Under the pieces are notes generated by a model that did not search any database, was not told where the DNA came from, and saw nothing but the letters and a program-made list of their open reading frames with translations. Position numbers and translations under genes: made by a program. Shown in pieces: positions 8,052-54,429 of a stretch of DNA of 64,000 nt (positions are counted from its first letter, which is position 1; every line of letters begins with the position of its first letter). Origin of the DNA: Amycolatopsis dendrobii (GTDB taxonomy: Bacteria; Actinomycetota; Actinomycetes; Mycobacteriales; Pseudonocardiaceae); the NCBI RefSeq assembly GCF_014145675.1, contig NZ_JACGZW010000002.1, forward strand, positions 682,001 to 746,000, in the 5' to 3' direction.

Positions 8052-9359
8052 ATGCCGGAAGACACCACGAGCTGGTCCTTCGAGACCAAGCAGATCCACG
8101 CGGGGGCGGCGCCCGATCCGGCGACCGGCGCCCGCGCGACGCCGATCTACCAGACCACGTCGTACGTCTTCCGCGACACGCAGCACGGGGCGGATCTGTT
8201 CAGCCTCGCCGAGCCCGGCCACATCTACACGCGCATCAACAACCCGACCCAGGACGTCCTGGAGCAGCGCGTCGCCACTCTCGAAGGCGGCGTCGCCGGC
8301 CTCGCGTTCGCGTCCGGTTCGGCGGCGGTCACCGCGGCGATCCTGACCCTGGCCAACGCGGGCGACCACTTCGTCACCAGCCCCTCGCTGTACGGCGGCA
8401 CCTACAACCTCTTCCACTACACGCTGCCGAAGCTCGGCATCGAGGTCACCTTCATCGACGACCAGGACGACGCGGAGCAGTGGCGGGCCGCGGTCCGGCC
8501 GAACACCAAGCTGTTCTTCGCCGAGACGCTGGCCAACCCGAGCAGCGCCGTCCTCGACATCCGCAAGGTCGCCGACGTCGCGCACGAGGCCGGGGTCCCG
8601 CTGGTCGTGGACAACACCGTGCCCACGCCGTACCTCGTCCGCCCGATCGAGCACGGCGCCGACATCGTCGTGCACTCGGCGACGAAGTACCTCGGCGGCC
8701 ACGGCACGACGGTCGCCGGCGTGCTGGTCGACGGCGGCACGTTCGACTTCGGCAAGGACCCGTCCCGGTTCCCGGGCTTCAACGAGCCCGACCCGAGCTA
8801 CCACGGTCTCAAGTACTGGGAGGCGCTCGGCCCTGGCGCGTTCGCGGCCAAGGCGCGCGTGCAGATCCTGCGCGACACCGGCGCGGCGATCGCTCCGCTG
8901 AACAGCTTCCTCATCTTGCAGGGCATCGAGACGCTGTCGCTGCGCGTGGAGCGGCACTCCGCGAACGCGCAGGCGCTCGCGGAATGGCTGGAAGAGCGCG
9001 ACGAGGTCGAGAAGGTCTACTACGCGGGCCTGCCGTCGAGCCCGTACCACGCGGCGGCGCAGAAGTACCTGCCGCGCGGCGTCGGCGCGGTGCTGTCGTT
9101 CGAGCTGCGCGGCGGCGTCGAGGCGGGCCGGAAGTTCGTCGACGGCACCGAACTGCACAGCCAGCTGGTGAACCTCGGCGACGTGCGCAGCCTGATCGTG
9201 CACCCGGCTTCGACCACGCACAGCCAGCTCGGCCCCGAGGAACAGGTCGCCGCGGGCGTCACGCCGGGCCTCGTGCGGCTCGCCGTCGGACTGGAAGGAA
9301 TCGAGGACCTGAAGGCCGACCTCGAGGCGGGCTTCCGCGCCGCCAAGGCGGCACTGTGA
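8052..9359 (+). CDS. metY: O-acetylhomoserine sulfhydrylase
   Basis: A 435-residue PLP enzyme of the Cys/Met metabolism family that makes homocysteine from O-acetylhomoserine and sulfide (it may also use O-acetylserine). The opening [10 protein letters not shown], the [17 protein letters not shown] segment and the phosphate-binding FASGSAA motif are typical of MetY. The PLP Schiff-base lysine is Lys212 in [11 protein letters not shown]. The length fits MetY (about 430) rather than the shorter MetB/MetC (about 385). GGAGCGAG precedes ATG 8052. It overlaps metXA through GTGA, forming the standard two-gene operon in which MetXA supplies the substrate. Confidence 0.95.
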
Positions 9360-40129: not shown

Positions 40130-41697
40130 AGCAGCGGCGGAACGGCCGCGTCGATCAGGTGCGGCCCCGGTTCGGCGATCGCGCGCCGGAACTGTTCGGC
40201 CAGTTCTTCCGCGGTCGTCGCCCGGGTCGCCGGGACGCCCATGCCCTCGGCGATCTTCACGAAGTCCAGGTCCGGACGGCCGATGTCCAGCAGGTCCTTC
40301 GCGCGCGGCCCGTCTCCGGCCGCGCCGACCCGCTGCAGTTCCATCCGGAGGATCGCGTACGCGTTGTTGTTGAGCACCACTGTGGTGACGTCGAGGTTCT
40401 CGCGCGCTTGCGTCCACAGCGCGGAGATCGTGTACATCGCGCTGCCGTCGGATTCGAGGTTGACCACGGGCCGCTGCGGAGCCGCGATCGCCGCGCCGAC
40501 GGCCACCGGCATGCCGTAGCCGATCGCGCCGCCGGTCAGGGTCAGCACGTCGTGCCGCGGCGCGCCCGCGGTCGCGGCGGGGAGCATGAGCCCGGACGTG
40601 TTCGCCTCGTCCACGATGATCGCGTTCTCCGGCAGCAGCGCGCCGATGACGTCGACCCAGTTCTGCGGGGTGAGCGGACCGGCGGGCAGTGCCGGCCGCC
40701 CGGCCTCCTGCAAGACCGGCTCGGTGTCCGCGGCCACCAGCGCGGCGACCGCTTCCAGCGCGGCGGAGACGTCCTGGCCCGCCGTGGCGAGGACGTGGAC
40801 GTCGGCGCCTTCCGGGGTCAGCTCGCTCGGCATGCCGGGGTAGGCGAAGAACGACACCGGCGCCCTCGTGCCCGCGACGATCAGGTGCTTGATCCCGTCC
40901 AGCTGGTATTTGACGTGCTCGGCGAGATAACCCAGCCGTTCGATGGCGGGCAGCCCGGCGCCGCGCTCCAGCCGCGCAGGGAACGTTTCGGCGAACGCCT
41001 TCACCCCGGTCGCGGCCGCGATCCGGCTGGTCGCGCGCAAACCCGCTTCGCGGCAAGCGGATCCGCCGATCAGCAACGCCACCGGCTCGCCGCCGCGCAG
41101 CAGGTCCGCGATCTTCTGCACGGTCGTCGAATCGACCGTCTGCGGCACGCGCGGCGGAATCGGCTCGCACGTTTCGCCGCCCTCGCCCCACGACGCGTCG
41201 GCGGGAAGGATCAGGGTCGCGACCCGGCCCGGTGCGTCCTGTGCCGCCGCGACCGCCGCCGCGGCGTCCGCGCCGACATCCTTCGTGTGCCCGGACCGGC
41301 GCACCCAGCCTTCGAGCGAGCCCGCGATGGCGTCGATGTCCGACTCCAGCGGAGCGTCGTACTGCTTGTGATACGTGGCGTGGTCGCCGATCACGTTGAC
41401 CACCGGCGTGTGCGCGCGCCGCGCGTTGTGCAGGTTCGCCAGGCCGTTCCCGAGCCCGGGGCCGAGGTGCAGCAGCGTCGCGGCGGGCTTGCCCGCGACC
41501 CGCGCGTACCCGTCCGCGGCACCGGTCACGACGCCCTCGAACAGCGCGAGCACGCCGCGCATCTCCGGCACCGAATCGAGCGCGGCGACGAAATGCATTT
41601 CCGACGTGCCGGGGTTGGAGAAGCACACGTCGACCCCGCTGTCGACGAGCGTGCGGATGAGGGACTGGGCGCCGTTGAGCGTGCTCACTGTGCTCAC
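40126..41697 (-). CDS. Thiamine-diphosphate enzyme (IlvX-like)
   Basis: A 523-residue ThDP enzyme of the acetolactate-synthase/benzoylformate-decarboxylase superfamily. The catalytic Glu is in FEGVVTGAADGYAR near residue 54. The cofactor metal motif reads ESDGSAMYTISALWTQ with NNNAYAI, closer to IlvX than to anabolic IlvB (which has GDG). No small regulatory subunit gene is nearby, which argues against branched-chain amino acid biosynthesis. It overlaps the upstream FAD-oxidase gene by four bases (ATGA), so the two act together, perhaps to make or remove a 2-keto or 2-hydroxy acid. Substrate unknown. Confidence 0.85.
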   Translation of the reverse strand: MSTVSTLNGAQSLIRTLVDSGVDVCFSNPGTSEMHFVAALDSVPEMRGVLALFEGVVTGAADGYARVAGKPAATLLHLGPGLGNGLANLHNARRAHTPVVNVIGDHATYHKQYDAPLESDIDAIAGSLEGWVRRSGHTKDVGADAAAAVAAAQDAPGRVATLILPADASWGEGGETCEPIPPRVPQTVDSTTVQKIADLLRGGEPVALLIGGSACREAGLRATSRIAAATGVKAFAETFPARLERGAGLPAIERLGYLAEHVKYQLDGIKHLIVAGTRAPVSFFAYPGMPSELTPEGADVHVLATAGQDVSAALEAVAALVAADTEPVLQEAGRPALPAGPLTPQNWVDVIGALLPENAIIVDEANTSGLMLPAATAGAPRHDVLTLTGGAIGYGMPVAVGAAIAAPQRPVVNLESDGSAMYTISALWTQARENLDVTTVVLNNNAYAILRMELQRVGAAGDGPRAKDLLDIGRPDLDFVKIAEGMGVPATRATTAEELAEQFRRAIAEPGPHLIDAAVPPLL

Positions 41698-43079
41698 TTT
41701 CCGGTTTGCGCGAACAGAACGCCGGGGTTCAGGATCCCGGCCGGGTCGAAGCTTTCCTTGACCCGGCGCAGCAGATCGAGCTTCGCCGGGTCCTCGAGTT
41801 TGGCGTAGTACTTCGTCTTGGTGCGGCCGAGTCCGTGCTCGCCGGAGATCGCGCCGCCCAATTCATAGGCGTAACCGAAGATGTCGGTCAGCAGTTGCGA
41901 GCGCGTGTCCGGGTCCTTGCAGAAGATCGCCAGGTGGACGTTGCCGTCGCCGGCGTGCCCGCAGCCGATCGCGCCGCCGCCGGTGGCCATCGCCAGCTCG
42001 CGGGCCTTGTCCAGGAACCGCGGCATCGCGGTCCGCGGCACCACCACGTCGATCACGTCGTCCGCGCCCGCGGCTTTGGCGTTCCAGAAGGCTTTTTCGC
42101 GGGCTTCGATGAGCTTGCGCGCGGCACCGCCTTCGAGCACGTACGCATCGGCAGCGCCGAGTTCGACCAGCAGTTCGCCGAGCGCTTCGACGTCCTCGCC
42201 GAGCCGGTCGGCCACCCGGTTTTCCAGCGCCACGGCCAGATACGCCTGGGTCCGGTCGCGGATTTCCGCCGGAACGCCCAGTTCGAGCTTGTCGTTGTAG
42301 ACCATCGCGGCCATCGTCATGTTGTCGATGTACTCGAGGATCTGCGGGGCGAGACCGCTCGCGGCGATCTTCGGCACGGCCGCCATGACCTGGGCGAAAT
42401 CGTCGAACGGGGCGAGCACCGTCGCGCCGTGCGGCAGCCGCGGCTGCAGTTTCACGATCACCTCGGTCACCAGCGCGAGCGTGCCCTCCGAGCCGATGAT
42501 CAGCTGGGTGAGGTCGTAGCCGCTGGAGATCTTCGACATCCGGCCGCCGACGCGGATGATCTCGCCGGTCGCGAGCACCGCCTGGAGGCCGGAGACGTTG
42601 CCGCGGGTGATGCCGTAGCGGATCGCGCGCATGCCGCCGGCGTTGGTGCCGACGGTGCCGCCGACGCTCGCGCTCAGTTCGCCGGGATAAACGGGGTAGG
42701 TGAGGCCGTGTTCGGCGGTCTTCGCGTCGAGTTCGGCCAGCGTGACGCCCGGCTGGACGACGGCGACGTGGTTGCCGGTGTCGATCTCGAGCACCGAGTT
42801 CATCCGCTCGAACGAGACGACCAGCCCGCCTTCGACCGGACGCGCCGCGGCGGACAGCCCGCTGCCGGACCCGCGCGCGGTCACCGGGATGCCCTCGGCG
42901 GCGGCGATCTTCAGCAGCTCGGAGACCTCTTCGGCAGTGGCAGGCTTCGCGACGTACGCCGGTTTCTGGCCTGGCGTGCTGAGCGCCTCGTCGTGCGCGT
43001 AGTCGTCGGAGATCGCGTCACCGGTCAGCAGGTTCCCCGCTCCGACGGCCCCTGCCAGCTGTGTTGCGATCTCGCTCAT
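41694..43079 (-). CDS. FAD-binding oxidase (GlcD/D-lactate dehydrogenase-like)
   Basis: A 461-residue FAD-linked oxidase of the glycolate oxidase GlcD family. The PCMH FAD domain has TARGSGSGLSAAARPVEGG and GGTVGTNAGGMRAIRYG; the C-terminal domain has GAIGCGHAGDGNVHLAIF and GAISGEHGLGRTKTKYY with the metal or substrate histidines. It oxidises a 2-hydroxy acid (D-lactate, glycolate or 2-hydroxyglutarate are typical). It is cotranscribed with the ThDP enzyme gene, with a four-base overlap. GAGGGAG precedes ATG 43079. The lack of glcE or glcF genes suggests a stand-alone enzyme. Confidence 0.9.
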   Translation of the reverse strand: MSEIATQLAGAVGAGNLLTGDAISDDYAHDEALSTPGQKPAYVAKPATAEEVSELLKIAAAEGIPVTARGSGSGLSAAARPVEGGLVVSFERMNSVLEIDTGNHVAVVQPGVTLAELDAKTAEHGLTYPVYPGELSASVGGTVGTNAGGMRAIRYGITRGNVSGLQAVLATGEIIRVGGRMSKISSGYDLTQLIIGSEGTLALVTEVIVKLQPRLPHGATVLAPFDDFAQVMAAVPKIAASGLAPQILEYIDNMTMAAMVYNDKLELGVPAEIRDRTQAYLAVALENRVADRLGEDVEALGELLVELGAADAYVLEGGAARKLIEAREKAFWNAKAAGADDVIDVVVPRTAMPRFLDKARELAMATGGGAIGCGHAGDGNVHLAIFCKDPDTRSQLLTDIFGYAYELGGAISGEHGLGRTKTKYYAKLEDPAKLDLLRRVKESFDPAGILNPGVLFAQTGK

Positions 43080-43278: not shown

Positions 43279-43371
43279 TCAGACGAGCCAGCCGAGCACG
43301 TGCGCCAGGTGCGCGAGCAGACCCGAGATCAGGTCGTGGCCGTGGTGCACGTGCTGGGTGAACATCTGCAT
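43279..43371 (-). CDS. 30-residue histidine-rich peptide
   Basis: A very small open frame encoding MQMFTQHVHHGHDLISGLLA plus HLAHVLGWLV. Seven of 30 residues are His. The C-terminal half forms an amphipathic or membrane-active helix (DLISGLLAHLAHVLGWLV). It has a full set of signals of its own: AAGGAG (43384-43379) seven bases before ATG 43371, a TTGACA box at 43457-43452, and two hairpins after the stop, one with a U-run. This makes real expression likely. It has no leader-core processing motif and no maturation genes nearby. I do not recognise the family; a metal-binding, regulatory or membrane-active peptide is possible. Confidence 0.6.
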   Translation of the reverse strand: MQMFTQHVHHGHDLISGLLAHLAHVLGWLV

Positions 43372-43956: not shown

Positions 43957-44457
43957 TCAGTCCGCCCGCGCGAACGACAGCGTCTCGCCCTCTACGCCGC
44001 GCAGCCACAGATCCTGCGCGGCCGCTGCCATCTCGGACAGGCCTTCCTCGATCGTCGCGAACACGTTGCCGGGCACCCAGCCCGCGTCGCCGTTGATCAG
44101 CAGGTTGTTGCGTCCGTAGAAAATTGCGAGATCCGTGGCACCCTGGTCGCTGTGCGCCTCGCTGCCTTCGTCGTAGCCGTACGCCGGATTGCCGATTTCC
44201 CACGCCTCGAATCCGAAGTAGACGACATCGCCCGGAATCGGGGTGATGGTCGGATTCTCGCGCCCCGGCTTAGGCTCCGCGAAGGGCGGCACGAGCGTGT
44301 AAACCTCGTTGCGCGCGTACTTCGCGTGATAGGCCGAACCGCTCTGCGGCAGCGCGTCCCACACCGCCTTGCAGGTGCGCGGTGCTTCGTCGTCGAGCAG
44401 CCGGGCGCGACAGGTGACGCCGCGCTTGTCGAGGCTGATGGTGATGTAGCGCGCCAT
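43957..44457 (-). CDS. DUF3830 (cyclophilin-like fold) protein
   Basis: A 166-residue protein of the DUF3830 type (ARYITISLDKRGVTCRARLL, ARNEVYTLVPPFAEP, GDVVYFGFEAWEIG, LAIFYGRNNLLINGDAGWVPGNVFATI). The family is predicted to have a cyclophilin-like beta barrel and is often encoded with racemases, hydantoinases and amidases, as here. Its biochemical role is unknown; an enzyme of the racemase or isomerase type is possible. It starts three bases after the aminotransferase gene on the same strand. Upstream of that operon lies an ATTGTTGACAAT operator shared with the rest of the cluster. Confidence 0.8.
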   Translation of the reverse strand: MARYITISLDKRGVTCRARLLDDEAPRTCKAVWDALPQSGSAYHAKYARNEVYTLVPPFAEPKPGRENPTITPIPGDVVYFGFEAWEIGNPAYGYDEGSEAHSDQGATDLAIFYGRNNLLINGDAGWVPGNVFATIEEGLSEMAAAAQDLWLRGVEGETLSFARAD

Positions 44458-44460
44458 GCC

Positions 44461-45717
44461 TCAGCTCCCCGTGACCGACGTGACGACCTCGCCCCAGATG
44501 CGCAGGGCGTCGTCGACCTGTTCCGCGTTGACGACCAGCGGCGGCACCATGCGCACGACGTTCGAGTACGCACCACAGGTGAGCAGCAGCAGTCCGCTCT
44601 TCGCGGCTGCCTGCTGCGCGGCCTGCGCGGTGGCCGTGTCCGGTTCGCCGTCCGCGGTAGTGAACTCGGTGCCCACGAGGAGCCCGAGACCGCGTACGTC
44701 GCCGATAGCCGGCGTCTTGTCCGCGATGACGCGCGCGCCCTCGAGAAGCTGACGGCCACGCTCCGCGGCGTTCTCGACCAAGCCTTCGTCCTGGATGACG
44801 TCGAGCGTCGCGATCGCCGCCGCGCACGACACCGCGTTGCCGCCGTACGTGCCGCCTTGCGAACCCGGGTACGCCTTCGCCATCAGCTCTTCCGAAGCGG
44901 CGATGCCCGACAGCGGGAAGCCGCTCGCGAGGCCCTTCGCGATCAGCACGACGTCCGGGTGGACGTCGAAGTGGTCGTGGCCCCAGAACTTGCCGGTGCG
45001 GCCGAACCCGGCCTGCACCTCGTCGAGCACCAGCAGGATGCCGTGCCGGTCGGCGCGCTCGCGCAGCCCGGCCATGAACTCGGTGTTGGCCGGGACGTAG
45101 CCGCCCTCGCCGAGCACCGGCTCGATGAAGAACGCGGCCGTCTCGTTCGGCGCGGAGACGGTCTGGAAGAGATAGTCCAGCTCGCGCAAGGCGAACTTCG
45201 TCGCCGTCTCCTCGTCCCAGCCGTAGTGGTAGGCGTAGGGGAACGGCGCGACGTGCACGCCGGACATCAGCGGCGAGATGCCCGCACTGAACCGCGTGCC
45301 CGAGGTGGTCATGGACGCCGCGGCGACCGTGCGGCCGTGGAAACCGCCCTGGAACACGATGACGTTCGGCCGCTTCGTCGCCTGCCGGGCCAGCCGCAGC
45401 GCGGCCTCGACGGCCTCGCTGCCGGAGTTCGCGTAGAAGAGCGAATCGAGCCCGGACGGCAGCACCTCGCCGAGCTTGCGGGTCAGTTCGAGCAGCGGCT
45501 GGTGCATCACCGTCGTGTACTGGCCGTGCACGAGCTTGCCGATCTGCTCGCGCGCGGCTTCGACGACGCGCGGGTGACAGTGCCCGGTGCTGGTCACCCC
45601 GATGCCCGCGGTGAAGTCGAGGTGACGTTTCCCGTCCACGTCGTAGAGGTAAACCCCTTCACCGTGGTCGACGACGACGGGCGTTGCCTGCTTGAGCAGC
45701 GGGGAAAGCTGGGCCAT
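44461..45717 (-). CDS. Class III aminotransferase (GABA-transaminase-like)
   Basis: A 418-residue PLP aminotransferase, subgroup III, which moves an omega-amino group to a keto acid. FYANSGSEAVEAALRLAR is the early PLP-phosphate motif. LVLDEVQAGFGRTGKFW carries the PLP Asp, and IAKGLASGFPLSG has the Schiff-base Lys near residue 263. AGGAGGG lies six bases before ATG 45717. Divergent from a semialdehyde dehydrogenase gene, it fits a GABA- or beta-alanine-type pathway: amine to semialdehyde, then oxidation. The operator ATTGTTGACAAT lies between the two. Confidence 0.9.
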   Translation of the reverse strand: MAQLSPLLKQATPVVVDHGEGVYLYDVDGKRHLDFTAGIGVTSTGHCHPRVVEAAREQIGKLVHGQYTTVMHQPLLELTRKLGEVLPSGLDSLFYANSGSEAVEAALRLARQATKRPNVIVFQGGFHGRTVAAASMTTSGTRFSAGISPLMSGVHVAPFPYAYHYGWDEETATKFALRELDYLFQTVSAPNETAAFFIEPVLGEGGYVPANTEFMAGLRERADRHGILLVLDEVQAGFGRTGKFWGHDHFDVHPDVVLIAKGLASGFPLSGIAASEELMAKAYPGSQGGTYGGNAVSCAAAIATLDVIQDEGLVENAAERGRQLLEGARVIADKTPAIGDVRGLGLLVGTEFTTADGEPDTATAQAAQQAAAKSGLLLLTCGAYSNVVRMVPPLVVNAEQVDDALRIWGEVVTSVTGS

Positions 45718-45754
45718 GCGGCGCCCTCCTGGGTGCGGGTGGAGACGGTTGTCG

Positions 45755-45766
45755 ATTGTTGACAAT
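45755..45766. promoter_or_regulatory. GntR operator copy A, ATTGTTGACAAT
   Basis: A 12-bp near-palindrome in the 93-base gap between the divergent aminotransferase and semialdehyde dehydrogenase genes. Matching copies lie at 51190 and 52018. TTGT-N2-ACAA fits FadR/FCD-type GntR operators. It should control both operons. Confidence 0.7.
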
Positions 45767-45810
45767 ATCCATAGCATGAGTTCGGGACAACAGGAACAGG
45801 AGCGAGCTGG

Positions 45811-47274
45811 ATGAGCGGGATCACCGAGAACGGCGTCGTGGACGCGGTCGGCAAGGAACTCTTCATCGGCGGCAAGTGGGTCGCCGCGCGCAGCGGGAAG
45901 ACCTTCGACGTGCAGGACCCCTCCACCGGCGAGGTGCTGTGCCAGGTCGCGGACGCCGCACCGGAAGACGGTCTCGCCGCGCTCGACGCGGCGGTCGCGG
46001 CGCAAGCCGACTGGGCCGCGGTCGCCCCTCGGGAGCGCGGCGAGATCCTGCGCCGCGCGTACGACAAGCTCATCGAGCGCCGCGACGAGCTGGCCCTGCT
46101 GATGACCCTGGAGATGGGCAAGCCACTGGCCGAGGCCGCCGGGGAAATCACTTACGCCGCCGAGTTCTTCCGCTGGTTCGCCGAGGAGGCGGTGCGGATC
46201 GACGGCGGCTACGCGGTGGCCCCGAACGGTTCGGGCCGGTTCCTGATCGCGCGCCAGCCGGTCGGTCCGACGCTGCTCATCACGCCGTGGAACTTCCCGA
46301 TGGCGATGGGCACGCGCAAGATCGGCCCGGCCGTCGCCGCGGGCTGCACGATGGTGATCAAGCCCGCCGCGCAGACGCCGCTGTCGATGCTCGCGCTCAC
46401 CCAGATCCTCGCCGACGCCGGACTGCCCGAAGGCGTGCTGAACGTCGTCACCACCAAGGACGCCGGCGGCGTGATGGAGCCGCTGATCCGCGACGGCCGC
46501 GCGCGCAAGCTGTCCTTCACCGGTTCGACCGGGGTCGGGCGCAAGCTGCTGGAGCAGTGCGCGGAGAAGGTGCTGCGCACGTCGATGGAACTGGGCGGCA
46601 ACGCGCCGTTCGTCGTGTTCGACGACGCGGACCTGGACGCCGCGGTCGAGGGCGCGATGCAGGCCAAGATGCGCAACATCGGCGAGGCGTGCACCGCGGC
46701 CAACCGGTTCTACGTGCAGCGCGGCGTCGCCGAGGAGTTCTCCCGCCGGCTCACCGAGCGGATGCAGGCGCTGCCGATGGGCCGCGGCACCGACGAAGGC
46801 GTCGTGGTCGGCCCGCTCATCGACGAGGCCGCGGTGAAGAAGGTGACCGAACTGGTCAAGGACGCCACGGACAAGGGCGCGCGGGTGCTCACCGGCGGCT
46901 CGCGGGTCGACGGTCCGGGGCACTTCTACCCGGCGACCGTGCTCACCGACGTGCCGGTGGACGCCCGGCTGGCCAGCGAGGAAATCTTCGGCCCGGTCGC
47001 GCCGATCACGCCGTTCGACACCGAGGACGAGGCGGTCGAGAAGGCCAACGACACCGAATTCGGCCTGGTGTCCTACCTGTTCACCAGCGACCTGAAGCGC
47101 GCGCTGCGCGTGTCGGAACGCTTGGAGGCCGGGATGATCGGCCTCAACCAGGGCATCGTGTCCAACCCGGCGGCCCCGTTCGGCGGCGTCAAGCAGTCCG
47201 GTCTCGGCCGCGAGGGCGGCACGGTCGGCATCGACGAGTTCCTGGAGACCAAGTACATCGCGGTGAGCCTGTGA
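45811..47274 (+). CDS. gabD: Succinate-semialdehyde-type aldehyde dehydrogenase
   Basis: A 487-residue NAD(P)-dependent aldehyde dehydrogenase of the succinate-semialdehyde group. The catalytic Glu260 is in SMELGGNAPFVVFDD and the nucleophile Cys294 in GEACTAANRF. TPWNFPMAMGTRKIGPA and FTGSTGVGRKLL are the cofactor-binding segments. It oxidises the semialdehyde that the divergent aminotransferase would make. The gene overlaps the next gene by GTGA. Malonate or methylmalonate semialdehyde cannot be excluded as substrate. Confidence 0.9.
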   Translation: MSGITENGVVDAVGKELFIGGKWVAARSGKTFDVQDPSTGEVLCQVADAAPEDGLAALDAAVAAQADWAAVAPRERGEILRRAYDKLIERRDELALLMTLEMGKPLAEAAGEITYAAEFFRWFAEEAVRIDGGYAVAPNGSGRFLIARQPVGPTLLITPWNFPMAMGTRKIGPAVAAGCTMVIKPAAQTPLSMLALTQILADAGLPEGVLNVVTTKDAGGVMEPLIRDGRARKLSFTGSTGVGRKLLEQCAEKVLRTSMELGGNAPFVVFDDADLDAAVEGAMQAKMRNIGEACTAANRFYVQRGVAEEFSRRLTERMQALPMGRGTDEGVVVGPLIDEAAVKKVTELVKDATDKGARVLTGGSRVDGPGHFYPATVLTDVPVDARLASEEIFGPVAPITPFDTEDEAVEKANDTEFGLVSYLFTSDLKRALRVSERLEAGMIGLNQGIVSNPAAPFGGVKQSGLGREGGTVGIDEFLETKYIAVSL

Positions 47275-48326
47275 CACACCGGATTGCCAGCATCCCGGGC
47301 GACGGGATCGGGGTCGACGTCACGATCGAGGCGCGCCGGGTCCTCGACGCGGCCGCGGACAAGTACGGATTCTCCTTGGAGTGGACCGAATTCGACTGGA
47401 GCTGCGAGCGGTACGCGAAGACCGGCGCGATGATGCCGGAGGACGGGGTCGAGCAGCTGTCGGGTTTCGACGGCATCCTGCTCGGCGCCGTCGGCTTCCC
47501 CGGCGTCGCGGACCACGTTTCGCTGTGGGGCCTGCTGATCCCGTTGCGGCGGGCGTTCCAGCAGTACGTCAACCTGCGTCCGGTCCGGCTGCTGCCGGGG
47601 ACGTCCTCGGTGCTGGCCGGGCGGAAGGCCGACGAGCTGGAAATGGTGATCGTCCGGGAGAACTCCGAGGGCGAGTACTCGGCGATCGGCGGACGGCACA
47701 ACGCCGGGCGGCCGGACGAGTTCGTGCTGCAGGAATCGGTGTTCACCCGGGTCGGGGTGGAACGGATCATCCGGTACGCCTTCGAACTCGCGCGCACGCG
47801 GTCTCAGCACGTCACCTCGGCGACGAAGTCCAACGGGCTGATCCACTCGATGCCTTACTGGGACGAGATTTTCGCCGAGGTCGCGGCGCGGTACCCGGAC
47901 GTCCGCGCGGAACAGTGCCATGTGGACGCGCTCGCCGCGCGGATGGTGCAGGCTCCGGACCGGCTCGACGTGGTGGTGGCGTCGAACCTGTTCGGCGACA
48001 TCCTGAGCGATCTCGCGGCCGCGATCACCGGCGGACTGGGCATGGCCCCGTCCGGAAACATCAACCCATCAGGTGAGTTTCCGTCGATGTTCGAGGCGGT
48101 CCACGGCAGTGCTCCGGACATCGCCGGACAGGGCATCGCGAACCCGGTCGCGCAGATCCTCGCCGCGGCGATGCTGCTCGATCACCTCGGGGAAACCGTT
48201 GCCGCACAAGCGATCCGCGCTTCGGTCGACGAGGTGCTGACCGCGGGCGAAACGCTCACCCCCGACCTCGGCGGAACCGCTACCACAACCGCGCTCGGCA
48301 CCGCGGTGGCCGCTTCGCTCCGCTGA
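47271..48326 (+). CDS. Tartrate/D-malate dehydrogenase (isopropylmalate dehydrogenase family)
   Basis: A 351-residue NAD-dependent beta-decarboxylating dehydrogenase. It has the isocitrate/isopropylmalate fold markers IPGDGIGVDVT, VIVRENSEGEYS, the substrate Lys in TSATKSNGL and GSAPDIAGQGIANPVAQILAA with the metal Asp residues (SNLFGDILSDLAAA). The NLRPVRLLPG segment fits the tartrate/D-malate group. It converts a 2-hydroxydiacid such as D-malate to pyruvate and CO2. GTG 47271 overlaps the gabD stop. It is the second gene of the operon behind operator A. Specificity is inferred. Confidence 0.87.
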   Translation: MTHRIASIPGDGIGVDVTIEARRVLDAAADKYGFSLEWTEFDWSCERYAKTGAMMPEDGVEQLSGFDGILLGAVGFPGVADHVSLWGLLIPLRRAFQQYVNLRPVRLLPGTSSVLAGRKADELEMVIVRENSEGEYSAIGGRHNAGRPDEFVLQESVFTRVGVERIIRYAFELARTRSQHVTSATKSNGLIHSMPYWDEIFAEVAARYPDVRAEQCHVDALAARMVQAPDRLDVVVASNLFGDILSDLAAAITGGLGMAPSGNINPSGEFPSMFEAVHGSAPDIAGQGIANPVAQILAAAMLLDHLGETVAAQAIRASVDEVLTAGETLTPDLGGTATTTALGTAVAASLR

Positions 48327-48396
48327 TTTTTCGTCGGTGCCGCGCGGTTGACTCTTCCCTGACCCGCCGACGGGTCCCCGAGGGGAGGAGGCGCCG

Positions 48397-48864
48397 ATGT
48401 GCCAGAGGTGCGAGGAACCGGGAAGACCGGAGGAGCAGTACCTGATCGAGGTGCTCGACGAGATCAGGGAGAACGGCTGGTGCGTCCAGGGCGTGCTGGG
48501 AACGGGTTCCCGGCCGCCCTGGGCGTACACCGCGGGCCTGACCGTGCAGGGCCTGCCCGAGCTGGTCGTCACCGGATTGCTGCCGCACCAGGCGGTGCGG
48601 CTGCTCAGCGCCGCGGCCGAAGAGTCGCTGCACACCGGTCCGCCGGTGCCCGGGGAACAGTGGCTGCTGCCCCGGTTGCCCCGGCTGGAAATCGTCCAGC
48701 TCAGCGATCCCGCGGCGCACCTGGACATCGCGGTGTGCTGCTATGGCACGGGAATCGAAGCCAGGCAGCTGGTCTACGCCGACTCCGCGGGCTGGTTCCC
48801 GTGGTCTCCGCAATACAACTCCGGCCGCGGCGGGCAGCCCGTGCTGGGGGTGCGGCATGGCTGA
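48397..48864 (+). CDS. DUF4262 domain protein
   Basis: A 155-residue protein that matches the DUF4262 pattern: ENGWCVQGVLGTGSRPPWAYTAGLTVQGLPELVVTGLLP is its core. The opening CQRCEEPGR has a Cys pair that could bind metal or be redox-active. The function of the family is unknown. ATG 48397 has GAGGAGG just upstream. It lies 70 bases after the dehydrogenase operon and before a GNAT gene; it is probably not part of the catabolic pathway. Confidence 0.8.
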   Translation: MCQRCEEPGRPEEQYLIEVLDEIRENGWCVQGVLGTGSRPPWAYTAGLTVQGLPELVVTGLLPHQAVRLLSAAAEESLHTGPPVPGEQWLLPRLPRLEIVQLSDPAAHLDIAVCCYGTGIEARQLVYADSAGWFPWSPQYNSGRGGQPVLGVRHG

Positions 48865-48917
48865 GTTTTTCCTGCTGTGCCAGGGTTTTCTTCGCTGGTG
48901 GCCGGTAAGGTCGAAGC

Positions 48918-49412
48918 ATGCCCGAACTTCTGGCCCCCACTGTCCGCCTGCACCGCCCGTGGCTGGCAGCGCATCGCGAATGGGGACCGGGCTTGCACGA
49001 GGACGGGTTCGGCCTGTCCGCGTCGGACCAGGTCGATTCTCCGGCTGGCTTCGCCGCCTGGGTCGCTTCCTTGCCGGGAGCCCACGCCGTCTGCCGCTGG
49101 CTGGTCGAGGACGGACAGGTACTCGGCGGAATCGCTCTGCGCACTGGGCCGGCCGAATATGTCGAATGGGCCGGACACCTAGGCTTCGGCATCCGCCCCT
49201 CGGCGCGCGGCCGGGGTCTCGCTTCCTGGGCGTTGCGACAGATGCTGCCCGAGGCCCGGCGTCTGGAGTTGCCTCGCGTGCTCTTGGTGTGCGCGGCCGA
49301 GAACCTGGCGTCCGCCAGGACGATCGAACGCGCGGGCGGCGTGCTGGAGGAGGTCCGCCAGACTGGCCACGGGCCGGTGCGGCGGTACTGGATCACGCTC
49401 GAAGTGCTCTGA
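48918..49412 (+). CDS. GNAT-family N-acetyltransferase (RimJ-like)
   Basis: A 164-residue acetyltransferase. The acetyl-CoA loop is RPSARGRGLASWALRQML near residue 94, and CAAENLASARTIERAGGVLEE is the typical RimJ/RimL C-terminal segment. It may acetylate a protein N-terminus or a small amine. It is transcribed with or after the DUF4262 gene (53-base gap). Substrate unknown. Confidence 0.85.
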   Translation: MPELLAPTVRLHRPWLAAHREWGPGLHEDGFGLSASDQVDSPAGFAAWVASLPGAHAVCRWLVEDGQVLGGIALRTGPAEYVEWAGHLGFGIRPSARGRGLASWALRQMLPEARRLELPRVLLVCAAENLASARTIERAGGVLEEVRQTGHGPVRRYWITLEVL

Positions 49413-49753
49413 GGCGCACCTGCTGTTCGCCATCGCGGAGCGGTGGGGGCCCGGCCTTGAGCTATCGAGACCTCGACGAGAACTCAGCCGTTCCGCTGCT
49501 GCTGCTCGCGTTGGCTTGCGGCACTTTCGGTTTCGTGGCGGTGCACCGGTTCGCCCATGAGGAACGGGCCATCGCGCGGTTCGATACCACGGGGATAAGG
49601 ATCCAAGCCGGGTGCGGAGACACCCGAGCCGCCCCAGGCCAAGCGCGGATTGCGGATGCCCATGCGGTACTCGGGCAGTGCGGCGTGATTTCCGGCGGTG
49701 CGCTCTGTGCGGTGCGAGGGTCAAGCGGCAGCCGCCCGAAAATCCCGCCTGCC
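49413..49753. other. Gap with a possible gene remnant
   Basis: A 341-base stretch without a convincing gene. A plus-strand frame near 49455-49560 reads like a short membrane segment (YRDLDENSAVPLLLLALACG then FGFVAVHRFAHEE) but loses protein character soon after. It may be the remains of a small membrane gene. No terminator hairpin stands out. Confidence 0.35.
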
Positions 49754-50440
49754 TCACTCCCCGGCCGCGACTCCGTCCTTCAAACTCCGCCCCGGAAGCA
49801 ACCGGCTGATCGCGTCCTCCATGTGCGCGTCCAGCAAGTGCAGCGCCGTTTCCTCGTCACCCGACCGAAGGGCTTCAATGATCCTTGTGTGCTCCTCCAG
49901 CCGGTCCTCCACGCCCTGATACGTGCTCTGCAGCAGCGTCAGGCACATCCGCGTCTCGATCAGCAGCGTCCGGGCCATGCGCACCAGGCGTTTGCTGCCG
50001 GACGCATTGATCAGCGCTTCGTGGAACCGCAGATCGGCCTCCGACAACGCGGCCGGATCGTCCGCCGCGGCAGCCATGTCGGCCACGTTCTGTTCGAGCG
50101 TCGTCGCCACCGCCTCGCGGTCTCCGCGGAACGCGCACAGCAGGGCGGCCCGTTCGACCGCCGAGCGGGCGAGGTAGATGTCGAAGACATCCGCCGGTTC
50201 GAGGTCGATCACGAACAGGCCGCGGTGGCGTTCGCTGCGCAGCAAACCCTCGGACACGAGGTGCTGCATCGCCTCGCGCAGCGGGCCGCGCGAGACCTGG
50301 AAGCGGGCGGCGAGGTCGGTTTCGCCGAGCTGGGTGCCCGGCGGCAGCGCGCCGGTCATGATCGCGTCGCGCAACTGGCGCGCGATCACGGCGGCGGTCG
50401 ATTCGCGGCTGACCGGTTCTATGTCAGGGAGTGCGACCAC
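49754..50440 (-). CDS. GntR-family (FCD) regulator of the catabolic cluster
   Basis: A 228-residue FadR-subfamily GntR protein. Residues 10-80 are the winged helix (AVIARQLRDAIMTGALPPG, ETDLAARFQVSRGPLREAMQHL). Residues 90-215 are the FCD ligand domain with metal ligands in DLRFHEALI and EEHTRIIEAL...DAHMED. It starts three bases after the isomerase gene at 50444, at the end of an operon. It most likely binds ATTGT(T/C)GACAAT, which occurs at 45755, 51190 and 52018 within this cluster. The inducer is probably a carboxylate intermediate of the pathway. Confidence 0.9.
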   Translation of the reverse strand: MVALPDIEPVSRESTAAVIARQLRDAIMTGALPPGTQLGETDLAARFQVSRGPLREAMQHLVSEGLLRSERHRGLFVIDLEPADVFDIYLARSAVERAALLCAFRGDREAVATTLEQNVADMAAAADDPAALSEADLRFHEALINASGSKRLVRMARTLLIETRMCLTLLQSTYQGVEDRLEEHTRIIEALRSGDEETALHLLDAHMEDAISRLLPGRSLKDGVAAGE

Positions 50441-50443
50441 GGG

Positions 50444-51169
50444 TCAGCCCCTCGTCCGGAACAACGCGCCCAGCGAGCGCACCAGCCGGGTCGACCCGGT
50501 CAGGCGCAGGCCTTCCCACACGGTCACCTGGTTGGCGGTCAGCACCGGCTTGCCGAGCTTCGCTTCGATGTCGGTGATCTCGCCGAGCGTGCGCATCGCG
50601 GTGTCGGGCACCAGAACCGCGTCGGCGTCGGGATGGTCGTGGCTTACCGCGAGGTCCACCACGGCCTCGGGGGCGAGCTGGCCTACCTCGGCGGCGGTGT
50701 CGATGTCGGCGCTCGACATCGAGACCACCTCGACGCCGCCCGCGGCGAGGAAGTCCACGAACAGCCGCGCGACGTCGTCGGGGTAGCTCGCGGCCACCGC
50801 GACTCGTTGCACGCCAAGGGCTTTCGCCGCGTGCACGAAGGCGAACGACGTGCTCGAAGCCGGGACCCCGGCGACCGCGGCGAGCTGGTCGACCTGGGTG
50901 CGCGCGCCGTCCCAGCCGTACACGAAGCTGCCGGACGTGCACGCCCACACCACCGCTTCCGGCTGGTGTTTCGCGAGCAGCCGGGCGCCTTCGGCGAGGC
51001 GGGCTTCGCTGCCGAGGTCGAGCAGTTCCGGCACGGCGTGCAGGTCGGTGCCGTAGATGTGCGCGACCGGCAGGCTGATGTCGCCGTCGGAGCCGCCGAG
51101 AAGCTGTTCCGCGAGCGGGTAGTCGTCCTCGGCCGCGTGGTCGGGGTAGATGAAGCCGATCGTGGTCAC
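50444..51169 (-). CDS. Maleate isomerase/Asp-Glu racemase-family enzyme, second Cys missing
   Basis: A 241-residue member of the maleate cis-trans isomerase/arylmalonate decarboxylase group. The first catalytic Cys is present (Cys77 in WACTSGSFVYG). The position of the second Cys is Asp189 (LVPDTAMRT), whereas maleate isomerases use two Cys. Such one-Cys members may be decarboxylases or have lost isomerase activity. It is followed after three bases by the GntR gene. The operator ATTGTCGACAAT lies 21 bases upstream of the start. A paralogue with both Cys is encoded just upstream. Confidence 0.82.
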   Translation of the reverse strand: MTTIGFIYPDHAAEDDYPLAEQLLGGSDGDISLPVAHIYGTDLHAVPELLDLGSEARLAEGARLLAKHQPEAVVWACTSGSFVYGWDGARTQVDQLAAVAGVPASSTSFAFVHAAKALGVQRVAVAASYPDDVARLFVDFLAAGGVEVVSMSSADIDTAAEVGQLAPEAVVDLAVSHDHPDADAVLVPDTAMRTLGEITDIEAKLGKPVLTANQVTVWEGLRLTGSTRLVRSLGALFRTRG

Positions 51170-51189
51170 GAAACCTCCGGGATGCGCAA

Positions 51190-51201
51190 ATTGTCGACAA
51201 T
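51190..51201. promoter_or_regulatory. GntR operator copy B, ATTGTCGACAAT
   Basis: A perfect 12-bp palindrome in the 46-base gap between the two isomerase-family genes, so it can control the second isomerase and the GntR gene. It is identical to copies A and C except for one base. Confidence 0.75.
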
Positions 51202-51215
51202 ATTAGCGGGACGGG

Positions 51216-51956
51216 TCAAGACACCTCCCGCAGCCACTGGCCGGGTCCCACGATGGGCAGCTGCATCCGGCGCAGGCAGGCCCACATCGTCAGCTGGTTG
51301 GCGGTCAGCACGGGTTTGCCGAGCGCCTTTTCCAGCGGTTCGATCAGATCGAACGTGGGGAGGTTGGTGCAGCTGACGAAGATCGCCTCGGCGTCGCGGT
51401 GGTCCGCGGCCAGGATGCGCTCGGCGATGGTGCGGTAGCTGACCTTCCAGATGCCGCCGCCCAGTCCGAGATGGTCGCTCGACACCGTGGTCACGCCGAC
51501 CTCTCCGAGGAAATCGTGGAGTTTGCCGGTGAGGTCGGCGTCGTAGGGCGTGAGCACCGAGACCCGGTGCAGGTCGAGCTGGTGCAGCACCTCGACGAGG
51601 GCTCCGGAGGTGGTGACCGCGTCCGGCGCGCCCGCGTCGCAGATCGCCTTGGTGAGGGAGCGTTCGTAGTCGATGCCGTTCACGAAGCTGCCCGAGGTGC
51701 ACAGGTACGCGACCACCTCCGGCTCCACGTGCAGCACGTCGCGCGTGGCCGTGGCGAGGTGCCTGCTGTCGCTCACCAGCTGTGCCATCTCCATGCTCAC
51801 CGGAACCGGTTCGTAGGGGGTGCGGGCGAGATGCAGCGACACCTCCATCGGCACCCAGCGCCACAGTTCGCGCTCGAGCGCGAGGTCGAACGGCGCGATC
51901 ACGCCGATGCCGCGCTGGGCGAGCGGGCCCTCGAACGCGAGGAAGTCCAGATCCAA
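51216..51956 (-). CDS. Maleate isomerase/Asp-Glu racemase-family enzyme, both Cys present
   Basis: A 246-residue enzyme of the maleate isomerase/Asp-Glu racemase superfamily. Both catalytic Cys are in place: Cys86 in AYLCTSGSFVNG and Cys196 in FVSCTNLPTFD. The length and motifs fit maleate cis-trans isomerase (maleate to fumarate) or a related racemase. Its paralogue at 50444 lacks the second Cys. It is transcribed from the gap that holds operator C, divergent from the hydroxyacid dehydrogenase and amidase genes. An amidase upstream of such an isomerase recalls maleamate to maleate to fumarate in nicotinate degradation. Confidence 0.84.
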   Translation of the reverse strand: MDLDFLAFEGPLAQRGIGVIAPFDLALERELWRWVPMEVSLHLARTPYEPVPVSMEMAQLVSDSRHLATATRDVLHVEPEVVAYLCTSGSFVNGIDYERSLTKAICDAGAPDAVTTSGALVEVLHQLDLHRVSVLTPYDADLTGKLHDFLGEVGVTTVSSDHLGLGGGIWKVSYRTIAERILAADHRDAEAIFVSCTNLPTFDLIEPLEKALGKPVLTANQLTMWACLRRMQLPIVGPGQWLREVS

Positions 51957-52017
51957 GGTTCAGCCTCCGGAATACGCTGTGCCGATGCCCGTCCGGTGCT
52001 CCGGGGGTGGTCCTCGG

Positions 52018-52029
52018 ATTGTTGACAAT
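52018..52029. promoter_or_regulatory. GntR operator copy C, ATTGTTGACAAT
   Basis: A 12-bp site in the 92-base gap between the divergent isomerase gene (51956) and the D-2-hydroxyacid dehydrogenase gene (52049). Together with copies A and B it defines the cluster-wide operator. Confidence 0.7.
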
Positions 52030-52048
52030 CATACGAGCCACTTTTACC

Positions 52049-53065
52049 GTGTCAATCGTGATCGCCCCGGAAAACCCCGTACTGGCAGTGCTCTGCGGGG
52101 CAGACCATCCACCGGACATGGCCGCTATCGAAGACGCGGCGGTAGTTCGTTACACCGATGAGCGCGGCCTCGCCGATGCGCTGGCCGGTGCCGACGCGCT
52201 CTTCGTCTACGATTTCCTGTCCGGAGCCGTCCCCGGCGCCTGGCATGCCGCGGACCGGTTGAAGTGGCTGCACATCGCGAGCGCCGGCGTCGACCCGGTC
52301 CTGTTCCCGGGGCTGCGCGAGAGCGACGTCGTGCTCACGAACTCGCGCGGGGTGTTCGACGACGCCATCGCCGAGTACGTGCTCGGCGTCGTGCTGTCGT
52401 TCGCCAAGGACTTCGCGCGCTCGCTCGACCTGCAGCGCGCCGGCACGTGGAAGCACCGCGAGACCGAGCGGATCGCCGGGCGGGAGGTGCTGGTGGTGGG
52501 CACCGGCCCGATCGGCAGGGCCATCGCGCGGATGCTGCGCGCGGCCGGGATGCGTGTGTCCGGGGCGGGACGGCGGGCAAGGGTCGGGGACCCGGACTTC
52601 GGCGTCGTGCACGAATCCGCCGCGCTGACGCGGTATCTGCCCGAGTTCGACTACGTCGTCGCGGTCGCGCCGCTCACCGACCAGACCAAGGGCATGTTCG
52701 ACGCCGCCGCGTTCGCCGCGATGAAACCGTCCGCGCGGTTCGTCAACGTGGGCCGCGGCGAACTGGTGGTCACCTCCGATCTGATCGCGGCGCTGCAGGC
52801 GGGGGAACTCGCCGGCGCCGCGCTCGACGTCTTCGAAACCGAGCCGCTGCCCGCCGAGAGTCCACTGTGGACCATGCCGGACGTCCTGCTGTCCCCGCAC
52901 ATGTCGGGCGATTTCATCGGCTGGCGGCGGACGCTGGTCGAGGTGTTCGCGGGGAACTTCCGGCGCTGGCTCGCCGGGGAACCGCTGTGGAACGTCGTGG
53001 ACAAACGGCTCGGCTACGTGCCGTCCGAATCGCAGGGAGGCGCCGGATGGGCGACCGGGAATTGA
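52049..53065 (+). CDS. D-2-hydroxyacid dehydrogenase
   Basis: A 338-residue NAD(P)-dependent D-2-hydroxyacid dehydrogenase. The Rossmann loop is VVGTGPIGRAIARML near residue 155. The catalytic Arg is in NVGRGELVVTSDL, the Glu in DVFETEPLPAESPLW and the His in LLSPHMSGD. It interconverts a 2-keto acid and a D-2-hydroxy acid. GTG 52049 (also GTG 52058) has no ribosome site and may be leaderless. The 3' end overlaps the amidase gene by 19 bases, so the two are coupled. It sits behind operator C. Confidence 0.88.
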   Translation: MSIVIAPENPVLAVLCGADHPPDMAAIEDAAVVRYTDERGLADALAGADALFVYDFLSGAVPGAWHAADRLKWLHIASAGVDPVLFPGLRESDVVLTNSRGVFDDAIAEYVLGVVLSFAKDFARSLDLQRAGTWKHRETERIAGREVLVVGTGPIGRAIARMLRAAGMRVSGAGRRARVGDPDFGVVHESAALTRYLPEFDYVVAVAPLTDQTKGMFDAAAFAAMKPSARFVNVGRGELVVTSDLIAALQAGELAGAALDVFETEPLPAESPLWTMPDVLLSPHMSGDFIGWRRTLVEVFAGNFRRWLAGEPLWNVVDKRLGYVPSESQGGAGWATGN

Positions 53066-54429
53066 CCGCCAGCGAACTCGTCGCCGCCTACGCCACCGGG
53101 GAACTGTCGCCGGTCGAGGCGACGAAGAGCGCCCTGCAGAACATCGAGGACCGCGACGGCGAGGTCAATGCCTACTGCCTCGTCGACGCCGAACGCGCGC
53201 TCGAACAGGCGAAAGCGGCCGAGGCGCGCTGGCGCGACGGGAATCCGATCGGCGCGCTCGACGGTGTCCCGGCGTCGATCAAGGACATCTTCCTCACCCA
53301 GGGCTGGCCGACGCTGCGCGGTTCCACGAGCATCCCGGCCGACCAGCCGTGGGAGGTCGACAGCCCGGTGATGGCGCGGATGCGCGAGGCGGGCCTGGTC
53401 GTGCTGGGCAAGACGACCACGCCGGAGATCGCGTGGAAGGGCGTCACCGACAGCGCGCTCGCGGGCATCACGCGCAATCCGGTGAACCCGCGGATGACGG
53501 CGGGCGGGTCCAGCGGCGGCAGCGCGGCCGCGGTCGCGGCGGCGATGGGCGAGCTGTCCGTCGGCACCGACGGCGGCGGCTCGATCCGGATTCCCGCGTC
53601 GTTCTGCGGAATCGTCGGCATGAAGCCGACCCACGGCCGGGTCCCGCTGTTCCCGGCGAGCCCGTTCGGCCCGCTCGCGCACGCCGGGCCGATGGCGCGC
53701 AGCGTGGACGACACGGCGTTGCTGCTGGACGTCCTCGCGCTCCCGGACCACCGCGACCCGACCGGGCTCGCGCCGCCGATCAGCGCGTACCGCGAGGCCG
53801 TGCGGCGCGACGTGCGCGGGCTGATCGCCGCGTACTCGCCGGCGCTCGGTTTCGCCGACGTGGACCCGGAAGTCGCGGCGATCGTCCAGTCGGCGGTGCA
53901 GTCCCTCGCCGACGCCGGACTGCAGGTGGAGCAGGCCGACCCCGGATTCGCCGATCCGAAGGACGCCTTCGACGTGCTGTGGTCGGCAGGCGCGGCGAAG
54001 TCGCTCGAAGCGTTCCCGCCGGGCAGCGAGTCGCGGATCGATCCGGGCCTGCGCCGCGTGTGGGAACAGGGCCGCACCTATTCGGCGGGCGATTATCTCG
54101 ACGCCACCGCGGAACGCGCCGCGCTCGGCATCCTGATGGGCGAGTTCCACACCCGCTACGACGTGCTGCTCACGCCGACCGTCCCGATCCCGCCGTTCGA
54201 GGCAGGCCATGACGTGCCGCCGGGCAGCGGGATGACCGAATGGCCGGAGTGGACGCCGTTCACCTACCCGTTCAACATGACGCAGCAGCCCGCGATCAGC
54301 GTCCCGGCCGGACGCACCGAATCGGGCCTCCCGGTCGGCCTGCAGATCGTCGGCCCGCGGCATTCGGACGACCTGGTGCTGGCGGTGGCGAAGCTGCTGG
54401 AGGAGGTCCGGCCCTGGGCCGCTCCGTGA
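53047..54429 (+). CDS. Amidase (amidase-signature family)
   Basis: A 460-residue amidase-signature hydrolase. The catalytic triad is complete: Lys79 in SIKDIF, Ser155 (cis) in GGSSGGSAAAV and the nucleophile Ser179 in GTDGGGSIRIPAS. It would hydrolyse an amide to the acid and ammonium, cytosolic. GGGAGG (53034-53039) precedes ATG 53047, which lies within the end of the dehydrogenase gene. The context with maleate-isomerase-like enzymes suggests a dicarboxylic monoamide such as maleamate, but the substrate cannot be read from the sequence. Confidence 0.9.
   Translation: MGDRELTASELVAAYATGELSPVEATKSALQNIEDRDGEVNAYCLVDAERALEQAKAAEARWRDGNPIGALDGVPASIKDIFLTQGWPTLRGSTSIPADQPWEVDSPVMARMREAGLVVLGKTTTPEIAWKGVTDSALAGITRNPVNPRMTAGGSSGGSAAAVAAAMGELSVGTDGGGSIRIPASFCGIVGMKPTHGRVPLFPASPFGPLAHAGPMARSVDDTALLLDVLALPDHRDPTGLAPPISAYREAVRRDVRGLIAAYSPALGFADVDPEVAAIVQSAVQSLADAGLQVEQADPGFADPKDAFDVLWSAGAAKSLEAFPPGSESRIDPGLRRVWEQGRTYSAGDYLDATAERAALGILMGEFHTRYDVLLTPTVPIPPFEAGHDVPPGSGMTEWPEWTPFTYPFNMTQQPAISVPAGRTESGLPVGLQIVGPRHSDDLVLAVAKLLEEVRPWAAP

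Follow-up and report, generated by a model that had tools for sequence, protein, structure and literature searches.

Gene content of the cluster

We analyzed a cluster of nine genes at positions 43957-54429 of a 64,000-nucleotide stretch of Amycolatopsis dendrobii DNA (this whole stretch is further called the window). The cluster probably serves the breakdown of ectoine and 5-hydroxyectoine. Reading of open reading frames (ORFs) and searches with Pfam and NCBIfam profiles recovered every gene named in the original prediction at its place, together with two small genes that had gone unmentioned. The cluster is composed of two modules. Module 1 consists of an amidase (AMD), a 2-hydroxyacid dehydrogenase (HADH), two EutA/arylmalonate decarboxylase (AMDase)-like proteins (RacA and RacB) and a GntR regulator, while module 2 consists of an aminotransferase (AT3), an aldehyde dehydrogenase (ALDH), a tartrate/malate dehydrogenase (TDH) and a DUF3830 protein.

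The first gene encodes the long form of DUF3830, with a cyclophilin-like fold (43957..44457, minus strand; PF12903, 222 bits, gathering cut-off 26). Next lies AT3, a class-III aminotransferase (44461..45717, minus strand; PF00202), for which no NCBIfam cut-off was reached among the matches listed. AT3 has 43% identity to a gabT-labelled plasmid protein and scored 306 bits to a solved PuuE. ALDH resembles succinate-semialdehyde dehydrogenase (SSADH) (45811..47274, plus strand; PF00171; TIGR01780 574.6 bits, under the cut-off of 646) and has 50% identity to the SSADH of the canonical (Leisingera) eut cluster. Its stop codon is overlapped by the GTG start codon of TDH, a tartrate/malate-type decarboxylating dehydrogenase (47271..48326, plus strand; tartrate dehydrogenase equivalog TIGR02089, 509.1 bits, over the cut-off of 470.4).

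The regulator carries both PF00392 and PF07729 (49754..50440, minus strand), and the predicted GntR/FCD protein does lie inside the group. RacA (50444..51169, minus strand; PF17645; TIGR02990 114.5 bits, cut-off 318) has Cys77 and Asp189. RacB (51216..51956, minus strand; PF17645; TIGR02990 104.6 bits, under the same cut-off) has two conserved cysteines and starts with TTG, with GGAGG ahead of the start. HADH is a D-2-hydroxyacid dehydrogenase with a GTG start (52049..53065, plus strand; PF02826; NF041369 217 bits, under the cut-off of 400), and AMD is a PRK06169 equivalog (53047..54429, plus strand; NF004815 767.7 bits, over the cut-off of 506).

A palindrome in the promoter gaps

Three copies of a short motif had been predicted in the promoter gaps, and all three were found as exact matches. 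The palindrome ATTGTTGACAAT lies at 45755..45766 in the divergent AT3/ALDH gap, with AT3 starting approximately 38 bp away on one side and ALDH 45 bp away on the other. At 51190..51201, approximately 21 bp from the RacA start, it reads ATTGTCGACAAT. A second copy of ATTGTTGACAAT occupies 52018..52029 in the divergent RacB/HADH gap, where the start of HADH is approximately 20 bp away and that of RacB 62 bp. Distances to start codons across the three sites are about 20-60 bp, and each site is a likely operator.

The exact form ATTGTYGACAAT (12 bp) occurred at 4 sites in the genome of 9,690,793 bases, 3 of them in the promoter gaps of this cluster. Allowing one mismatch, we obtained 9 forward and 10 reverse strand-hits genome-wide, compared with 0 and 1 for the pattern read backwards. 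Within the window, two mismatches gave 6 strand-hits (the three sites), while shuffles gave a mean of 1.81 and reached 6 in 6 of 100 cases. This window count alone is only mildly above the shuffles and not striking. The weight of the palindrome comes from the genome count and from its conservation across loci, and the conservation outweighs the window count. The fourth exact site of the genome (G000:C12:165963; L265 position 4964) lies by an XRE-type ORF adjoining an integrase-like ORF, and therefore possibly sits in an integrated element.

Conservation of the gene set and of the palindrome

A genome scan with RacA gave 511 confirmed relatives, of which the best 80 (L037-L116) were taken, so the counts lean to close relatives. 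These loci include Amycolatopsis, Prauserella, Saccharomonospora, Nocardia, Rhodococcus, Hoyosella, Glycomyces and others. Genes in the relatives' DNA were called mechanically and their presence was scored at 45% identity. RacA was present in 80 loci, HADH and GntR in 79 each, RacB in 75, AMD in 74, AT3 in 65, ALDH in 62, DUF3830 in 61 and TDH in 52, and all nine genes together in 41. Thirteen loci had no AT3, ALDH or DUF3830 within the stretch covered, which was short in some cases; two of these still showed TDH. Five Prauserella loci (L078, L082, L085, L095 and L105; salsuginis, alba, aidingensis, halophila and isguenensis) kept HADH, RacA and GntR and had neither RacB nor AMD. RacA was found in 60 of 60 sampled genomes of the window's genus. 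More distant actinobacterial clusters kept parts of the core and added importers.

The palindrome (no more than one mismatch at 10 fixed positions) was kept in the AT3/ALDH gap of 59 of 59 measurable loci and in the HADH/Rac gap of 79 of 79, where RacA was used in place of RacB for the five Prauserella loci. For the RacB/RacA comparison it was kept in 49 of the 80 loci, 5 of which are without RacB. Exact ATTGTNNACAAT occurred 176 times in 95,244 bp of gaps and 6 times in 1,459,804 bp elsewhere in the same loci. In 25 loci that do not carry the genes of the cluster itself, among them loci with short DUF3830 or with ehu importer genes, it was absent throughout 440,447 bp. In Nocardia and Allokutzneria the modules swap relative place and orientation, yet the palindrome stays in both divergent gaps. 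The set is one co-conserved unit of two modules, and the original prediction of a GntR-associated gene set with a shared palindrome is supported.

We also noted several neighbouring genes. A DUF4262 gene (48397-48864) and a GNAT-like acetyltransferase ORF (48918-49412) lie between TDH and GntR; an ORF family with a DUF4262-like representative recurs in 16 of the loci clustered by gene family. Beside the cluster, at 40126-43079 on the minus strand, an ORF for a thiamine diphosphate-type enzyme overlaps an FAD-linked glycolate/lactate-oxidase-like ORF (read by eye), and members of the oxidase-like family were present in 22 loci. Downstream of the cluster (43279-43371, minus strand), reading by eye showed a possible ORF for a peptide of 30 residues (MQMFTQHVHHGHD...), with AAGGAG ahead.

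RacA, RacB and DUF3830

RacA and RacB had been predicted as two maleate-isomerase-like enzymes. The best solved match of RacB is indeed 2XEC, a putative maleate isomerase (61 bits), but Pfam and NCBIfam assign both proteins to the EutA/AMDase type, with EutA as the nearest NCBIfam family. Their residues indicate that the two are not equivalent. Both catalytic-type cysteines were present in 94 of 94 distinct RacB sequences, while 93 of 104 RacA sequences had Cys77/Asp189 (of the others, six had Ser/Asp, two Ser/Gly and one Cys/Gly, while the two Mesorhizobium homologs had Cys/Cys). Since the second position is Asp, the actinobacterial RacA is unlikely to be an ordinary two-cysteine racemase. 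Nine actinobacterial RacAs (L124, L125, L128-L134) departed from the Cys77/Asp189 pattern, and eight of them were without both cysteines.

The DUF3830 protein of the window has 63% identity to the solved 3KOP, a structure released in 2009 as an uncharacterised protein. Its fold resembles one domain of the Pictet-Spenglerases KslB and McbB, at an identity of 16-20%, which does not by itself imply a shared function; among the matches listed for the DUF3830 model, nothing outside its own family scored better than these two. The residues H44, R49, N50, E51, R116, N117 and N118 of DUF3830 are invariant. A plasmid search with DUF3830 gave no match, and in the open-licence PMC literature we found no paper naming it. 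Across 296 Actinomycetota genomes, the window's genome included, 19 contained RacA (E<=1e-45). Long DUF3830 (E<1e-50) was present in 14 of these 19 and in 1 of the 277 others. We regard it as a candidate ring-opening enzyme in the window's genome.

Short DUF3830 was seen in purine/allantoin-type clusters with uricase, 5-hydroxyisourate (HIU) hydrolase, allantoinase-like and M20 genes (L202, L205, L206, L208-L211, L213 and L216; neighbours were checked with Pfam in L206 and by eye in the other loci), and it may provide a late step that is missing from ureide breakdown. Three copies occur in L212, in a different setting. An allantoin pathway for the cluster itself was rejected, as long DUF3830 tracks RacA (14 of 15 genomes) and no purine genes were seen nearby.

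Co-occurrence with ectD, ehuB and eutD

We compared the occurrence of RacA with that of genes for ectoine hydroxylase (EctD), the binding protein EhuB and the ring hydrolase EutD; the genome lists behind these counts were compiled by hand from the profile-search results. In the phylum sample, EctD passed its cut-off in 14 of the 19 genomes with RacA and in 8 of the 277 without it. The corresponding numbers were 14 and 9 for EhuB anywhere in the genome, and 2 and 5 for EutD (E<=1e-45). As such tests leave shared ancestry in, we also counted by genus: 6 genera had both RacA and EctD, 4 RacA only, 5 EctD only and 184 neither (p = 1e-6). In the window's family (200 genomes, both proteins at E<=1e-60), EctD was present in 105 of 106 RacA genomes and in 27 of 94 others; the genome of the sole exception, G390, is assembled in 730 contigs. 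At genus level, 30 had both, none had RacA only, 9 had EctD only and 7 neither (p = 2e-4).

The window's genome itself carries ectD (427 bits) beside ectA-, ectB- and ectC-like ORFs, the last three read from ORF starts. Its best M24 proteins scored no more than 102 bits, so a hidden EutD was rejected. One of these M24 proteins lies beside an AsnC-like ORF and another beside an EF-P-like ORF (read from ORF starts). No EutB, EutC or EutE/DoeB deacetylase was found among the cluster proteins scanned; the rest of the genome was not searched for EutB or EutC, nor with TIGR02994 for the deacetylase.

Links to ectoine import and hydrolysis in other bacteria

Of the 19 RacA genomes, 10 (G067, G285 and eight of genus g8, which we guess to be Streptomyces) have EhuABCD genes within the cluster or next to it, and the EhuA, EhuB and EhuD proteins scanned were over their NCBIfam cut-offs. 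In G109, G133, G294 and G343 an EhuB over the cut-off was located away from the cluster. The clusters in G124, G222 and G329 include BCCT genes, and the one in G157 has a ProP-like gene and an M24 hydrolase.

The EhuB proteins of loci L139 and L136 had S. meliloti EhuB 2Q88 as their best solved match (224 bits against 65 for the next in one case, and 193 against 79 in the other), an ectoine-binding structure according to a 2018 review (PMC5924519). The pocket residues listed for a Paenibacillus EhuB (PMC6915088) fit E22, F25, Y61, F81 and R86 of 2Q88 (printed numbering) in our own mapping by residue spacing. At these positions we observed E/Y/Y/F/R in L139 and E/F/F/Y/R in L136; Glu, three aromatic residues and Arg are kept.

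In L139 of G067 the exact palindrome stands immediately ahead of RacA (9216), RacB (10937) and ehuB (14653), and one more copy, at 8223, separates a ProP-like gene from GntR. In L214 of the same genome it lies just upstream of HADH (3574), a EutD-like gene (4656), DUF3830 (9150) and AT3 (9254). The EutD-like protein scored 416 bits with TIGR02993, against a cut-off of 613 and 212 for the next family. Further, the palindrome was found between the aligned parts of GDH-like and BCCT genes in L141 and L150, and between M24 and GDH-like genes in L143.

On the Mesorhizobium plasmids AR02 and AR07 (L248/L255) the order is EhuBACD, a EutD-like M24 protein (606 bits on AR07, cut-off 613), an M20 amidohydrolase, a EutA-like protein (200 bits, cut-off 318), a D-2-hydroxyacid dehydrogenase with 32% identity to HADH, and a PRK06169 amidase with 48-49% identity to AMD (708 bits on AR07, cut-off 506). 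The last three stand in a row as relatives of genes of the window, with a LysR gene between in AR02, so the window's trio adjoins a near-canonical ectoine operon in another phylum. Unlike the window cluster, these clusters contain EutD and EhuBACD, have one EutA-like protein with both cysteines, and gave no DUF3830, AT3 or ALDH match in the stretch examined. On a Sinorhizobium plasmid, a RacB homolog (39%) is grouped with EhuA, EhuB and EhuD, an aldehyde dehydrogenase and a diaminobutyrate transaminase.

Two other loci were observed. L252, on a Bradyrhizobium guangxiense plasmid, is an Ehu-linked cluster with a EutA-type protein, DUF1989, an aminotransferase and a 5-oxoprolinase subunit. G264 (L215, L238) has long DUF3830, AT3 and ehu genes, with a RacB-like gene beside the best-scoring EhuB (293 bits); its contigs are short, and no RacA was found at E<=1e-45.

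Comparison with known ectoine systems

Judged from its proteins, the window cluster is not a member of the canonical eut/doe class (ehuABCD/uehABC-eutABCDE-asnC-ssd-atf; doe), as we looked for EutD, a EutA-level score, EutB/EutC in the cluster and an Ehu importer and found none of them. It shares with that class a EutA-type protein, a class-III aminotransferase, an SSADH-like dehydrogenase and one dedicated regulator; its relatives also share the Ehu importer and, in a few cases, a EutD-like hydrolase. It differs in having no EutD, EutB, EutC or importer, in adding the amidase, the D-2-hydroxyacid dehydrogenase, TDH, DUF3830 and a second EutA-type protein, and in its FCD-type GntR, where the canonical class has the MocR-type EnuR. 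The view that the enzyme set is unlike nicotinate, γ-aminobutyrate (GABA) or tartrate clusters was borne out. A GABA shunt would be compatible with AT3 and ALDH but not with the remaining genes.

According to the 2018 review, a EutD-based survey placed ectoine consumers only in Proteobacteria (section 8.2 of PMC5924519), although the same review counts Actinobacteria among the dominant groups of ectoine synthases. A 2026 study treats Gram-positive ectoine catabolism as putative and sought it through EutD and EutB (PMC13188858). The putative clusters it describes resemble ours in coming from Actinomycetota and Bacillota and in their varied importers, including BCCT and EhuABCD, but the window cluster would escape that search; without EutD it would be invisible to any EutD-based one. 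In the open-licence PMC literature we found no paper that pairs ectoine with Amycolatopsis, nor one under the phrase 'ectoine degradation'.

Discussion

The original prediction could not name a pathway of this composition. We propose that the cluster is probably a GntR-controlled regulon for breakdown of ectoine/5-hydroxyectoine, by a route that would do without the EutD ring hydrolase. The EhuABCD, EutD-like and ectD links point in this direction, and our confidence that it works as an operon for ectoine catabolism is moderate to good.

The route may run as follows. GntR would act as a repressor at the three palindromes, with repression lifted by an inducer derived from ectoine. Since ectD is present in the window's genome and neither EutD nor EhuB reached its cut-off there, ring opening would need another enzyme, and in this genome the cyclic amidine ring would perhaps be opened by DUF3830. 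AMD would take acetate off (hydroxy-)N-acetyl-diaminobutyrate, and AT3 and ALDH would turn the 4-amino end first into an aldehyde and next into an acid, yielding (3-hydroxy)aspartate. RacB, with RacA in some role, would act on a carbon next to a carboxylate and set its configuration. Asp/Glu-racemase-type enzymes act beside a carboxylate, so that (3-hydroxy)aspartate or its precursor is a more fitting target than the ring carbon that bears the hydroxyl. Oxidation of the hydroxylated C4 acid would fall to HADH and TDH, the latter releasing CO2. As the cluster has no EutB/EutC but has HADH, TDH and a second EutA-type protein, we infer a different route for this acid. For EutABC in Proteobacteria, the handling of the hydroxyl group has been proposed and not demonstrated (PMC5924519, PMC13188858). 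The window's organism likely turns over its own hydroxyectoine, because its genome carries ectABCD-like genes, while relatives with Ehu, BCCT or ProP-like importers likely scavenge.

Several observations weigh against this proposal. The links between genomes point to a compound class and not to reactions. RacA and RacB both score under the EutA cut-off (TIGR02990), so theirs is a family relationship only, and AT3 is nearer to GABA-type aminotransferases than to the aminotransferase of the canonical (Leisingera) eut cluster (30%). Searches of the window's genome stayed below the cut-offs for EutD (TIGR02993, best 66.5 bits, cut-off 613), DoeA_2 (NF038259, best 102 bits, cut-off 575) and EhuB (best 90.6 bits, cut-off 190.9; UehABC was not searched). 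EutD occurs in only 2 of the 19 RacA genomes of the phylum sample, and five of the 19 (G067, G124, G157, G222, G329) have no ectD over the cut-off, each with an Ehu, BCCT or ProP-like gene in the cluster. The regulatory link is uneven as well. The g8 clusters have neither a GntR gene nor the palindrome but an IclR-like gene, and L142 has GntR and no exact palindrome. The separate ehuB loci of G109, G133, G294 and G343 (L239, L240, L242 and L245) contain no exact palindrome in 17-19.5 kb around, therefore ehu is not under the palindrome there. Around the other palindrome sites of the window's genome (one exact, six with one mismatch) no obvious ectoine or pathway gene was seen by eye. Finally, five g8 genomes keep RacA and Ehu and have no RacB or AMD in the 18-20 kb examined and no DUF3830 genome-wide.

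We considered other explanations. The cluster could salvage by-products of ectoine biosynthesis, for instance (hydroxy-)N-acetyl-diaminobutyrate or diaminobutyrate, instead of ectoine, and no ring opening would then be needed. An amidase, an aminotransferase and an aldehyde dehydrogenase are enough for N-acetyl-diaminobutyrate, and such salvage would account for near-constant ectD in the family while the window's genome has no EutD and EhuB. However, it leaves the EhuABCD, BCCT and EutD-like genes in clusters, some of them under the palindrome, unaccounted for, and we think it unlikely. Alternatively, the substrate could be another small zwitterion taken up by Ehu-like, BCCT and ProP-like carriers (for example hydroxylated GABA or another N-acyl amino acid), with the ectD link being ecological. 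The GABA/SSADH-like character of AT3 and ALDH would suit this, as would the Arthrobacter plasmids, where related AT3/ALDH/TDH sets, with the palindrome too, lie near other amino-acid ABC transporters. The likeness of EhuB to the ectoine-binding structure, the palindrome at the EutD-like gene and the near-complete nesting within ectD genomes argue against it, and it seems unlikely as well. A maleamate/maleate or related amide pathway is very improbable, as the amidase and the maleate-isomerase-superfamily proteins, with both cysteines and the 2XEC match in RacB, would suit it but the profiles put RacA and RacB nearest EutA and in the AMDase family, and no nicotinate or maleate genes were seen by eye to recur in the neighbourhoods. 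The maleamate/nicotinate type was rejected on this last ground, and we found no specific support for the predicted substrates maleamate, maleate and D-malate.

A bolder extension of the ectoine proposal is tentative, and we think it rather doubtful: hydroxyectoine-making actinobacteria would own a second, EutD-independent degradation, in which DUF3830 would be a new cyclic-amidine ring opener (the reverse of Pictet-Spenglerase imine/ring chemistry) and the cysteine-poor EutA paralogue RacA would catalyze a reaction unlike that of known racemases.

In summary, the ectoine proposal suggests substrates for DUF3830, for the PRK06169 amidase and for the EutA-like pair, a type of protein whose role is only proposed even in the classical clusters as the cited papers describe them. 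If it is true, hydroxyectoine producers such as Amycolatopsis would possess a turnover system that is widespread, and what becomes of hydroxyectoine in these bacteria would be directly testable.

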